Assembly (NCBI GenBank): GCA_020433455.1
Contig: JAGRCP010000043.1
Coordinates: 1 to 64,000 of the forward strand
Source of the DNA: Caldilineaceae bacterium
GTDB lineage: Bacteria; Chloroflexota; Anaerolineae; Caldilineales; Caldilineaceae
Direction of reading: 5' to 3'
Length of the DNA: 64,000 nucleotides
Positions 39,660-44,983 of this stretch are shown piece by piece (position 1 is the first letter of the stretch; every line of letters starts with the position of its first letter). Made by a program: the position numbers and the translations under genes. The notes beneath the pieces were generated by a model. It saw only the letters and a program-made list of their open reading frames with translations, was not told where the DNA came from and did no database searches.

Positions 39660-40901
39660 ATGGCGCGCATCCTGTTTTTGACGCAGGTATTGCCTTATCC
39701 GCTCAATTCGGGGGCCAAGGTGAGGGCTTATTACGTATTGCGCTATTTGACGCAACACCATACGGTGAGCCTGGTTTCTTTTATTCGGGCGAACGATAGC
39801 GAAGATGCAGTGGCGCATTTGCGCCAATTTTGCGCCTCGGTGCAGACCGCGCCCATGCACCGCTCACGTCGCCTAACGGCAACAGCGGCACTGCGTTCAT
39901 TGGGCACGGGGCTGCCGCTGTTGATCGAGCGCGATGAGACGGCAGCCATGTATCAACTATTAGAGCAAGTTGTTGCTGAGGGCGAATATGATTATATCCA
40001 TGCCGATCAGACCTCCATGGTGCGCTATGCACGATGGGTGCAGGACCGGCTCGTCGGCCCAGGAATAAAGCCTGTACTCGTGCTCGATGCCCACAACGCC
40101 CTTTTTAAAGTCGTCACGCGTTTGGCCGAAGCGCAACGGAATCCGGTGATGCACCGCCTTTTGCAGCGTGAGGCAAAGCGATTGGCCCGCTATGAAAAGG
40201 AGGCCTATGCGCGATTCGACCACGTGGTCTTTGTCACTGAAGAGGATCGGGCGGATTTTGATCTCCCTTCCGCCGCAGTAATCCCGATTTGTCGCGAACC
40301 CGCTGCGCAACCGGTGGTGCAAACCATCGACCGACCGTTCCGCGTCACGTTCATCGGGCCGCTGCATTGGCCGCCCAACGCGGATGGCGTCCGCTGGATG
40401 TTGCATGAAATCTGGCCGCGGATCGTCGCGCACAAACCGCATGCACGCCTGACCATCATCGGCGCAGATCCCCCAGCCGACCTGATCGAAGCGAGTGAAA
40501 GCGCGCTTAATGTCGAAGTGACAGGTTATGTGGATGATCTGCTGCCGTATCTAGCGGAAACCGCAGCCTTCATCGTTCCCCTCCGTGCCGGAGGAGGAAT
40601 GCGCGTTAAGATCATTGATGGATGGACGTGGGGCTTGCCAATTGTCTCCACGTCCGTCGGAGCGGAAGGAATTGAGACACAGCAGGGCCGAAATATATTG
40701 CTTGCCGACGGACCGGTGGAGTTTGCGGACAGGGTCCTCGACCTTTTCTCTGCGCCCGCTTTGGCGGACTCGCTTGGGGCTTCTGGACGAGCTACGGTGG
40801 AAGAACAGTACGATTGGCTGCGTGTCTATCCGGCTTGGGCGGACGTGTATGGAGAAGATGAGGCTCCGCTGGTGATAGCGGAGATGATGATTCATGCCTG
40901 A
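39660..40901 (+). CDS. Glycosyltransferase family 4
   Basis: 413 residues. MARILFLTQVLPYPLNSGAK begins the acceptor domain. The donor domain has FIGPLHWPPNADGVRWML and LRAGGGMRVKIIDGWTWGLP, then STSVGAEGI. This belongs to the branch where GGGxRxKxxEA replaces the classical E-x7-E region, here with Asp in place of Glu. It starts three bases after the initiating transferase and may add the second sugar. Its last eight bases overlap the next gene. Confidence 0.9.
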   Translation: MARILFLTQVLPYPLNSGAKVRAYYVLRYLTQHHTVSLVSFIRANDSEDAVAHLRQFCASVQTAPMHRSRRLTATAALRSLGTGLPLLIERDETAAMYQLLEQVVAEGEYDYIHADQTSMVRYARWVQDRLVGPGIKPVLVLDAHNALFKVVTRLAEAQRNPVMHRLLQREAKRLARYEKEAYARFDHVVFVTEEDRADFDLPSAAVIPICREPAAQPVVQTIDRPFRVTFIGPLHWPPNADGVRWMLHEIWPRIVAHKPHARLTIIGADPPADLIEASESALNVEVTGYVDDLLPYLAETAAFIVPLRAGGGMRVKIIDGWTWGLPIVSTSVGAEGIETQQGRNILLADGPVEFADRVLDLFSAPALADSLGASGRATVEEQYDWLRVYPAWADVYGEDEAPLVIAEMMIHA

Positions 40902-43251
40902 ACAGCCTGTACGCGCGGTTGTCATTCCCTGTCCTTTTCTGGGCCTCTTTGATGACAGCAGCATTGTGCGCACAGTAGAAACCCAAGGACACCGCTGCTA
41001 TGCACAGCGTCCGCCGGCGTCGATTGGCGGTGAGCACCAGAATGAGTATTGCCTGAGCGGCGAATATGCTTCCTGCCCCCACTTCACCATGCCCAAAGAG
41101 GGCGGCCTGGAAGGCGCCTATCAGACGTCCTCGGCGGTCCGCCAGAGGCAGCATCGGCGCAATTGGCTTGCAACCGGACTGGCCGCCCTGATAATGACGC
41201 TGCTGGCCGGAGTAGTCTATATCTACGGTCTCGACTGGCTGCATGTACCTGACATGGGGGAAGCGCCCATTGCATTTGCGCCAACGGAGCAGACGGCAGC
41301 AACCATCCGGCCCACGCCATCGGTAACACCGACGCCGTCTACGTCAACTCCTCAATCGGCGGCTGTGGCCGACACAACGACAGCGTCTGTTAATTTGCTG
41401 CAGCCGTCTCCTGTGCCGACGGATCGGGTAATCAACCTTTCTCCTCAGACAGGCATCGCGGGTTGGTGGACCAGCCGGGACGACCGGCGCAATCACTTGG
41501 ATGATTCTTTTCTGTATGTCGGATCCCTCGCAGATCAGACCTACATCTCGGCGGCTCAGTTCAGTTTATCCGGTGTGGCGCGGGGCGCGCCGATCCACGC
41601 GGCGACGTTACGCTTAACCGGTTTACGAGATGATCGCTTCGATCCTGCGGTGGAAGCAACCTGGCTGGTGCAACTAGTGGCCCAGGAATCACTCGATGCA
41701 CTGAATGAGGCCGACTTCCTGACCGCATACAGCGCGCCCGCGTCCATCACCCTGGCTTTGCTCAGCAGCGAGGAATTGGCGGCCGGCAAGGCCAACGCAT
41801 TTGAATTTGAACCGGCCGTGCTGCTTTGGCTGGAACAGCAACTGCTCAATGGCGCCCAGTCGATGAGCGTGCGCCTGCTGGCCGACACCGATGGCGAGAC
41901 GCTCTTCGCCTGGGACAGCGGCGTCGGCCCCGAAACCGCAGGCAACGCGCCCACACTGACGTTGAGCATCGGTGAGCCGCCGCCCACACCGCCGCCGTTA
42001 CCCACCAAGCCCTTTGTGGTGGCAACACTGACGCCGGTGCCGGAGAATCTGGTCACAGTCGTCGCCCAGGCCAATACAGCAACCGCGGTTGCTGAAACCG
42101 TCGGCACTTACACGCCGCTACCCTATGATGTGCAGACGCCGACGCCTTTCCCGGAAAATTTGGCCACCGTACAAGCTGTGGCATTGTTCCTCGGCCTGCC
42201 GCCCATAGTACCGGATACGCCGACCCCGGCCAATGCAGCTGAGGCCAAAACCCAATCTGAGTTGGCAACCGCGGTCGCCCTGACAACCGGTACCTATACG
42301 CCGGTGCCGACCAATGCAGTGACGCCCGCCCTCATCCTGCCCTCGCCGCCGGCCGAGAATGTCGCCACCGCAGCAGCCCGCGTGCTCAAAGCGACGGAAG
42401 CGGCTTCGGTACTGCTCCGTCCGACATCAACGCCGTTACCGTACAATGCTGTCCTGGCCCAATATGTGTATGCAACGCCCCGCCCGACCAACGCTGAAGC
42501 AGCGGCGACCATGCAGCAGGCGGCCATCGACAAGGCTCAGGTGGACGGTACGTCAACGCCGTTGCCCTGGAATGCCGTCGTCATCACCAAAGTCCCTGAT
42601 GTAAAAAAGGAACCTACGCCGATTCCGCTCTTCATTTCCAGCAATGAGTTTACGCCGACGCCGACGCCGACGGAACTTCCGCCGGATGTGTTGCCGGATT
42701 TTGTACACGGAAAAATCCTTTTCAAGTCAAACCGCAGCGGGAGCGAAGGAGTTTATGTCCTTGACCTTGCCACCGGCGACGTCAGCCTGGTTACCCAGCC
42801 TTGGGTTTATCCTCTTGCGGCCAGGGACTTGGCCTATTCGCCCGATAGAAAACGGATGGCGCAGGTCGGCGCAGATGACCGGGGACGCCTTCAAATTCAG
42901 GTGCATTCTTTTGAATACAATACAACGAAAGAGATCACTTATCTGGAGAACATGACCTATGATCCTGCCTGGTCGCCAAACGGAGATCGCATTGTGTTTG
43001 TTAGTACCGGTAGCGGCAACGATGAAATCTACACCATTTCTCCCGAAGGTGAGGGCATGACGATGTTGACCCACAATCAGTGGGAATGGGACAAACATCC
43101 AACCTGGTCGCCTGACGGCAGCCGGATTGTCTTCTACTCGAATCGGGATACAGGACGTCGCCAGCTCTGGCTCATGAATAGTGATGGCAGCAATCAGACC
43201 AACATCAGCGGAAATGAGTACGAAGATTGGGACCCAATTTGGGTATGGTAA
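40894..43251 (+). CDS. Membrane protein: Cys head, TPLP repeats, PD40
   Basis: 785 residues; no characterised homologue known to me. An N-terminal cytosolic head has four Cys (13, 35, 53, 61) in the pattern CPFLGLFDD...RC...HQNEYCL...CPHF. One helix follows (about residues 92-112). The outside part has a Thr/Pro linker, a beta-sandwich like CBM96/DNRLRE modules (about 165-360, with AQFSLSGVARGAPIHAATLRL), then degenerate repeats of about 40 residues starting G-T-x-TPLP. At the end are three to four PD40/TolB-like repeats (AWSPNGDRIVFVSTG, TWSPDGSRIVFYSN). The gene sits between a glycosyltransferase and the chain-length kinase. It may sense or bind the polymer at the wall. Confidence 0.8.
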   Translation: MPEQPVRAVVIPCPFLGLFDDSSIVRTVETQGHRCYAQRPPASIGGEHQNEYCLSGEYASCPHFTMPKEGGLEGAYQTSSAVRQRQHRRNWLATGLAALIMTLLAGVVYIYGLDWLHVPDMGEAPIAFAPTEQTAATIRPTPSVTPTPSTSTPQSAAVADTTTASVNLLQPSPVPTDRVINLSPQTGIAGWWTSRDDRRNHLDDSFLYVGSLADQTYISAAQFSLSGVARGAPIHAATLRLTGLRDDRFDPAVEATWLVQLVAQESLDALNEADFLTAYSAPASITLALLSSEELAAGKANAFEFEPAVLLWLEQQLLNGAQSMSVRLLADTDGETLFAWDSGVGPETAGNAPTLTLSIGEPPPTPPPLPTKPFVVATLTPVPENLVTVVAQANTATAVAETVGTYTPLPYDVQTPTPFPENLATVQAVALFLGLPPIVPDTPTPANAAEAKTQSELATAVALTTGTYTPVPTNAVTPALILPSPPAENVATAAARVLKATEAASVLLRPTSTPLPYNAVLAQYVYATPRPTNAEAAATMQQAAIDKAQVDGTSTPLPWNAVVITKVPDVKKEPTPIPLFISSNEFTPTPTPTELPPDVLPDFVHGKILFKSNRSGSEGVYVLDLATGDVSLVTQPWVYPLAARDLAYSPDRKRMAQVGADDRGRLQIQVHSFEYNTTKEITYLENMTYDPAWSPNGDRIVFVSTGSGNDEIYTISPEGEGMTMLTHNQWEWDKHPTWSPDGSRIVFYSNRDTGRRQLWLMNSDGSNQTNISGNEYEDWDPIWVW

Positions 43252-43291: not shown

Positions 43292-44983
43292 ATGGAAACG
43301 ACTGAACTTCGTGACTATATCAAGCCGCTGCTGCGCTGGTGGTGGTTATTGGCGCTCTCCGTGCTGGTGGCTGTGGCATCGAGCGCCTTCTTTGCTGTAT
43401 CGCAGCCGGAACAGTATCAATCACGCGCGACAATCATGGTCGGCGGGTCGATTCGCGATCCGAATCCCGACAACTCCGGACTCTACATTGCACAGCAATT
43501 GATTACCACGTACACAGATCTGATCGTGCGTGACACCATTCGCCAACCGACTATGGAGGCTTTGGGGTTGACCTGGTTGCCCGAGTATACAGCGCGTGCA
43601 GTACCCAATACCCAGCTCATGGAACTATCGGTGATCGATACGGATCCGATGCGTGCGCAGGCGGTGGCCAATGAACTCATCCGGCAGCTTATCCTGGCCA
43701 GCCCCGCGGGCAGCGACAAGCAGCACCGCGAGGATTTCATCAATGCGCAGTTGGATGAATTGCAGGCTGGAATCGAACAGAACAAGGAGGAAATCGCACG
43801 CAAGCAAGATGAGTTAGTCGATCTTTTCAGCGCTCGTCAAATCGCGGATACGCAGAGTCAGATCCAGGCATTGGAAGATAAAGTCGCAATCATGCAGACC
43901 AACTTTACGAATCTTCTGGCCACGACCCAAAAGGGTGCGGTAAACACGATTTCAGTGATCGAAGCGCCACGGGCAGGTACGCCTATTGCCGGCAAAATCT
44001 GGTTGACCCTACTGACTGCGGCTGCAATCGGTTTTGTACTGGCCGCGATGGGGGCTTATCTCATCGAATATCTGGATGACACTCTGAAAAATTCGGATGA
44101 CGTACAAAAAAAATTGGGCATTGCTGCGGTCGGTGCGATTCCCATCCTGGACGGGAAAGAGGATGAGAATCTAATTATGTTAGAGCGGACTCATTCGCCG
44201 GCGGCTGAAGCCTACCGCGTGCTGCGCACCAATCTTCAGTATGCATCAGTGGCTAACAAGCTGGATATTCTTATGATCACCAGCCCATCGCCTCGCGAGG
44301 GGAAATCCACAACAGCAGCCAATTTAGCCGTTGCTCTGGGGCAATCCGGTCGGAACGTTGTACTCATCGATGCGGATATGCACCGGCCACGTCAACATCG
44401 GCTTTTTCAACTTGTCAATAACATTGGGCTAACCTCTGTGCTCCTGGGCGATCCTAAAGAGTTCAACTCGTTTTTGCAGCCGACCAAAGTCCCCACTTTA
44501 CGCGTACTCACAACCGGTCCGCTGGCCCCCAATCCGGCTGAACTATTGGGTTCCCAGCGCATGTACGAACTGCTAAACCGGGTGAAAGAGCAAGCTGACA
44601 TCGTCATTGTGGACAGCCCTCCGGCCACCGCAGTGGCTGACACGGCCGTGTTATCGACCCAGGTTGATGGGGTGCTGCTGGTGCTGTATGCCGGCCGGAC
44701 GAGCGGGGAAATGGCCAAACGGGCCAAGGCTGCATTGGATCAAGTGGGGGGACGCCTGGTTGGAGTCGTCCTCAACCGTATGCCTACGCGTGGATCATCG
44801 TATTATTATTACTACTACAACTACTACCGTCGCTACTATCGTCGCGATGATGAAATCTCCAGCTCATCGGCACAGGCAACGCCGCCCAAACCGTTTACCA
44901 AGAACAGACAAAAGGACAGCTATACTAACGGCAATGGAACGGATGTGATATTATCACATCTCAGTGTAAAAGATCCTGAATAG
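43292..44983 (+). CDS. Chain-length regulator with tyrosine kinase
   Basis: 563 residues, a Wzc/CpsCD fusion. The Wzz domain with its first helix is at the N-terminus (LRWWWLLALSVLVAVASS), a coiled-coil stretch lies at about 145-200 and a second helix at about 230-255. The BY-kinase domain follows: Walker A SPSPREGKSTTAANL, Walker A' VVLIDADMHRP and Walker B IVIVDSPPAT. The C-terminus has a cluster of ten Tyr (SSYYYYYYNYYRRYYRR, from residue 504), the autophosphorylation tail. It controls polymer length and export. No cognate phosphatase gene is in the window. The ATG at 43292 has a weak ribosome site. Confidence 0.93.
   Translation: METTELRDYIKPLLRWWWLLALSVLVAVASSAFFAVSQPEQYQSRATIMVGGSIRDPNPDNSGLYIAQQLITTYTDLIVRDTIRQPTMEALGLTWLPEYTARAVPNTQLMELSVIDTDPMRAQAVANELIRQLILASPAGSDKQHREDFINAQLDELQAGIEQNKEEIARKQDELVDLFSARQIADTQSQIQALEDKVAIMQTNFTNLLATTQKGAVNTISVIEAPRAGTPIAGKIWLTLLTAAAIGFVLAAMGAYLIEYLDDTLKNSDDVQKKLGIAAVGAIPILDGKEDENLIMLERTHSPAAEAYRVLRTNLQYASVANKLDILMITSPSPREGKSTTAANLAVALGQSGRNVVLIDADMHRPRQHRLFQLVNNIGLTSVLLGDPKEFNSFLQPTKVPTLRVLTTGPLAPNPAELLGSQRMYELLNRVKEQADIVIVDSPPATAVADTAVLSTQVDGVLLVLYAGRTSGEMAKRAKAALDQVGGRLVGVVLNRMPTRGSSYYYYYYNYYRRYYRRDDEISSSSAQATPPKPFTKNRQKDSYTNGNGTDVILSHLSVKDPE

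Follow-up and report, generated by a model that had tools for sequence, protein, structure and literature searches.

BY-kinases are ParA-like in structure, and membrane partners encoded beside them are already known in general. The transmembrane modulators CpsC and CapA, whose genes neighbour those of BY-kinases, possess cytosolic activating segments (PMC4574921, PMC3795738). MinD, SalA and TkmA are activators of BY-kinases, and control over these kinases is exerted by MinD, SalA and DefA (PMC11194573). Here we analyse a window (the whole stretch of DNA under study, 64,000 nucleotides) in which a membrane protein with a small four-cysteine N-terminal domain, hereafter termed the head, is encoded next to a BY-kinase. 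The head is undescribed in the libraries and the literature searched.

The head-bearing protein and its locus

From its ATG start, the gene for the membrane protein overlaps with the last 8 bases of the glycosyltransferase gene before it, and we therefore regard it as a member of a polysaccharide operon. The BY-kinase gene begins 40 bases after it, and the Wzz part, the BY-kinase-type Walker A motif and the C-terminal Tyr cluster are all present in the encoded kinase. The relevant features are the following:

40894-43251, + strand: gene for the membrane protein (785 aa), with head, TM helix, Pro/Thr-rich linkers and PD40 beta-propeller
40918-41085, + strand: head domain of the unnamed Cys4 family, residues 9-64 (profile matches, AlphaFold2)
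40930-40932, + strand: codon of Cys13 (CP motif), invariant
40996-40998, + strand: codon of Cys35, invariant
41050-41052, + strand: codon of Cys53, invariant
41074-41076, + strand: codon of Cys61, invariant
41140-41232, + strand: basic stretch (residues 83-89) and single membrane helix (about residues 91-113), N-inside by the positive-inside rule
42832-43242, + strand: TolB-like/PD40 beta-propeller repeats, residues 647-783 (family profile matches), predicted extracytoplasmic
43292-44983, + strand: adjacent BY-kinase with Wzz domain, MinD/ParA-type P-loop kinase domain and C-terminal Tyr cluster, the proposed partner

Positions 40894-41140 correspond to residues 1-82 of the protein. An earlier note on this DNA had described cysteines 13, 35, 53 and 61 in the pattern DD-x13-C-x17-C-x7-C in front of a single membrane helix. 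Positions and spacings are exact in the translation, the distances between successive cysteines being x21, x17 and x7, and the basic run RQRQHRR at residues 83-89 is indeed followed by a hydrophobic helix. Pfam and NCBIfam scans of the complete protein returned PD40-type matches only and no Wzz (chain-length determinant) domain. Between linker and repeats, the orthologues show good conservation of a region (41416-41974, about residues 175-360) that has no family match and by eye looks like a beta-sandwich domain of the carbohydrate-binding type. The same genome encodes a second head (G000:C23:19923-20126) on a 526-aa TM protein, with insertions both between the first and second and between the second and third cysteine.

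A domain family restricted to Chloroflexota

With the head of the window protein alone as query, matches were obtained in 75 of 249 genomes of the class (best E 2.5e-15), while a profile built from 24 sequences found matches in 126 of 400 genomes of the phylum. The head thus represents a real, unnamed domain family of about 55 residues, very well conserved and present in roughly a third of the sampled Chloroflexota genomes. It is found on a large set of surface proteins whose annotation so far reads no more than 'LysM' or 'hypothetical'.

The family is confined to Chloroflexota, as judged from a species-wide DNA scan in which contigs of 84,980 species were searched with the pattern CP[YF]LGLxDD and hits were confirmed by tblastn. 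All 71 loci recovered stem from Chloroflexota (or untitled bacteria of that group) save one on a contig titled Steroidobacteraceae (L117:6581-8128). Horizontal spread to that family was considered and rejected, because a gene next to the head gene has 80% identity to one from Chloroflexota; the contig is probably misbinned. A search of viral contigs yielded no relatives of the head.

The four-cysteine pattern lies far beyond chance. Conservation of the cysteines in homologues, on which the earlier proposal had been made to depend, proved complete: among 165 distinct copies, which share about 30-40% identity, Cys occupies every aligned residue at the four positions (162/162, 162/162, 160/160 and 159/159), and Gln49 is kept in 160 of 161 aligned copies. 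Since the contig set was picked by CPxLGLxDD, conservation of that motif is partly a matter of selection; Cys35, Gln49, Cys53 and Cys61 are unaffected by it. His-for-Cys replacements, a signature of zinc sites, were sought in the 165 copies and none was found, nor was any replacement by Asp. Heads too divergent for the CPxLGL motif still keep the four cysteines and have long insertions between the second and the third. Two small proteins without TM helix (L166:6399-7079 and L167:5624-6178) carry two such diverged heads each, again with long insertions between the second and third cysteine, and their genes lie near rplI/dnaB genes.

Fold and searches for known families

Pfam and NCBIfam searches of 75 members at lax thresholds gave scattered insignificant matches and nothing recurrent, and a sequence profile search of the PDB with the head returned noise only (E 1.2), in agreement with the earlier judgement that the head matches no named family. 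Neither was a paper on the motif or the domain found in a literature search. AlphaFold2 modelled the window head with a pLDDT of 73 (81-85 in the core) and the homologous head from locus L109 confidently as a compact domain (pLDDT 89.5, pTM 0.76, core about 95). The predicted order of elements is strand, strand, helix, helix. Neither head model found a significant match to solved structures with Foldseek and VIA, and comparison of the head model with a viral structure library yielded noise. Because Foldseek is weak for domains so small, the lack of a structural match would not by itself prove a new fold.

Topology and attached domains

The head resides in the cytosol, as the earlier note had assumed. 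It is nearly always found directly before one TM helix, and basic residues precede this helix: across 115 distinct proteins in which a helix follows the head, Lys and Arg average 4.0 before and 1.1 after it, and 99 of the 115 have more basic residues on the head side. The domains beyond the helix are of extracytoplasmic types, comprising LysM (27), PD40 (9), SH3 (4), Germane (2) and PKD (1) in 73 proteins; in addition, one sortase carries a head. This bears out the mention in the earlier note of similar heads on LysM and other Chloroflexota membrane proteins, here recovered by profile search and domain scans. Domains on the same side as the head, in turn, are cytosolic, namely ParA, a receiver domain with a CpaE/MinD-like ATPase, and DUF4388. 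In the ParA case, a natural fusion (L111:6149-7231), a ParA-type ATPase bears the head at its C-terminus, and a TM helix is absent. The second protein (L120:4232-7366, identical to L018) has five heads in tandem besides the receiver domain and the ATPase, with a single TM helix at the C-terminus, and in the third (L180:3555-5216) the head stands behind a DUF4388 (PATAN-like) domain. The possibility of an extracellular disulfide domain was rejected on the grounds of topology and of the fusions to cytosolic domains.

Association with BY-kinase, ParA and MinD-type ATPases

Linkage was assessed in a set unselected for neighbours, i.e. the 48 loci among L061-L131 with enough flanking sequence. At 18 of these, the head is encoded beside or is fused with an ATPase of the BY-kinase/ParA/MinD type (16 BY-kinases, one ParA, one CpaE). 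Genomes contain about 1-6 BY-kinases, typically about three, and the chance expectation of such linkage is well under 1%. At 0.3% the binomial P is about 3e-33, a value that overstates the certainty of the association, not its direction, as the loci are not phylogenetically independent.

Two arrangements recur. Of about 25 loci encoding a PD40-head protein, 22 have this gene next to one for a BY-kinase, in nearly all cases as its immediate upstream neighbour; at L144 the kinase gene comes first, and no BY-kinase was seen beside the PD40-head gene at L207. Genes for LysM-head proteins directly follow a BY-kinase gene on the same strand, usually with no more than 150 bases between them. At least 20 loci show this second arrangement, some of them with heads in tandem. 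As partner order and exterior domain differ, the two arrangements look independent. Each of two genomes (G607 and G562) has more than one BY-kinase/head pair. A ParA gene precedes a gene for a soluble head in L146 and L147, and genes for LMW-PTP (Wzb-like) are close to some head loci. Upstream of the PD40-head/BY-kinase pair at three loci (L205, L206, L208) there are GDP-heptose-type genes (GmhA/GmhB/HddA-like by eye), which suggests a heptose-containing surface glycan there.

The earlier note had proposed that the head links the outside to the kinase encoded next. Circumstantial support for this link comes from two unrelated architectures in which head and BY-kinase genes are neighbours far more often than by chance, and from the ParA/MinD-type ATPases fused to heads. 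Several observations speak against an obligatory connection. About 60% of the head loci are without such an ATPase; none was within range at 30 of the 48 unselected loci, and the ATPase-free loci include conserved LysM-heads of Tepidiforma/Dehalococcoidia and Ig-type heads of Caldilineales. Within the family of the window protein, four PD40 orthologues (L201, L202, L203 and L204) are headless, with a short N-terminus and a TM segment; L201 and L204 still adjoin a BY-kinase gene and L203 adjoins an LMW-PTP gene. Viewed from the BY-kinase side, with 1.5 kb of flank on each side, a head occurs at 3 of 30 loci and a PD40 body beside 7. Most BY-kinases show no head in these flanks. Taken together, the operon association does not require the head, and some heads do not act on an ATPase encoded next to them.

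Possible functions of the head

The reading that we prefer, with a probability of about 0.42, is that the head is a cytosolic Cys4 metal- or cluster-binding module which docks on, or modulates, ATPases of the BY-kinase/ParA/MinD type. Its cytosolic fold would be built around a site made by the four invariant cysteines. This site probably holds an Fe-S cluster or zinc rather than disulfides, and the cytosolic location argues against structural disulfides. The four conserved cysteines and the cytosolic location agree with what is expected of Fe-S and zinc Cys4 domains in general; we lean weakly towards Fe-S because neither CxxC nor a His substitution occurs. In this putative role of docking on or regulating P-loop ATPases at the membrane, the head of the window protein may serve as the tether between an extracytoplasmic beta-propeller protein and the neighbouring Wzc-like BY-kinase, and polysaccharide assembly outside could thereby be coupled to the state of the kinase inside, the direction of signalling being putative. 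The BY-kinase of the window has a Wzz membrane part of its own and may need no adaptor.

A general role in anchoring or sorting is somewhat unlikely. The head would then be a metal-stabilised Cys4 plug that fixes the N-in topology and assigns a range of surface proteins to particular membrane sites, and its linkage with BY-kinases would merely mean that operons for surface glycans contain surface proteins of this kind. The very different exteriors listed above, the sortase included, accord with such a role, as do the nearly constant position immediately before one TM helix, the many copies (most of them) that are not beside an ATPase and the BY-kinase neighbourhood that outlasts loss of the head. 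Soluble heads without TM helix (L013/L014, L111, L166/L167) and the five-fold array of L120 would, however, be unneeded for anchoring, and the common link to one ATPase superfamily, in fusions as well as in operons, would be left unexplained. A stronger version of the docking proposal makes the head a phylum-specific Cys4 (possibly Fe-S) domain of new fold that serves as common cytosolic adaptor for the ParA/MinD/BY-kinase group and plugs LysM, propeller, sortase and SH3 exteriors into glycan-export kinases and positioning ATPases; this we consider doubtful.

A sensor of redox state, oxygen or metal, which would modulate the attached surface protein or the neighbouring kinase via an Fe-S cluster or reactive thiols and have no fixed partner, is improbable. 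It would explain why the four positions are always Cys and never His or Asp. The wide spacing of single cysteines without CxxC knuckle and the Pro after Cys13 and usually after Cys61 appear more like Fe-S ligation than structural zinc, and in Bacillus there is a connection between oxidative stress and signalling by BY-kinases (PMC11194573). On the other hand, direct signs of a cluster are lacking, heads occur in aerobes and anaerobes alike, and pure Cys4 sites are also common among zinc sites. That the head serves as a BY-kinase substrate, phosphorylated on Tyr at aromatic positions, is very improbable: Tyr is frequent at positions 15, 28, 36, 52 and 64 but conserved at none of them, with Phe or His instead; in the window head, positions 15 and 64 are both Phe. 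A conserved Tyr substrate was rejected, Tyr reaching at most 64% at any position.

For docking on ATPases, the neighbourhoods and fusions provide a first concrete class of candidate partners, the BY-kinase/ParA/MinD ATPases. If true, docking would show how Chloroflexota couple their unusual envelope and polysaccharide export to cytosolic control.

Comparison with known systems

The C-terminal part of the window protein is shared with TolB/PD40 propeller proteins. Its score of 100.6 bits falls well short of the 343 set as TolB equivalog cut-off, and the N-terminal head, the TM helix and the Pro/Thr linkers are foreign to TolB.

Zinc ribbons and zinc knuckles (e.g. Pfam Zn_ribbon_19) resemble the head as small Cys4 domains before a TM helix or linker. 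The head differs from them in that it has a single-Cys layout in 165 copies, without CxxC (or CxxH) knuckles. A characterised zinc ribbon, named in the earlier note as the finding that would speak against a new module, did not emerge: the best zinc-ribbon profile match (0.013, in 2 of 75 members) is not significant, and there is no fold match in the PDB. WhiB-like [4Fe-4S] proteins have about 20 residues between the first and the second Cys and an Asp-rich start, and the head is alike in both respects. WhiB proteins continue with C-x2-C-x5-C and a GVWGG motif, whereas the head has C-x17-C-x7-C; the C-x2-C-x5-C motif is missing from the head and Pfam gave no match for the 75 members.

CapA, CpsC and TkmA of Firmicutes have in common with the window protein that a membrane protein encoded next to a BY-kinase presents a small cytosolic segment on the kinase side. 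In these modulators a Wzz domain is combined with a short activating segment at the C-terminus, whereas the window protein has an N-terminal Cys4 domain and no Wzz domain, and it is the BY-kinase of the window that bears the Wzz part. The docking proposal is without precedent in the head domain itself but has one in kind, because outside this phylum BY-kinases are under the control of membrane proteins that reach into the cytosol with a small segment.
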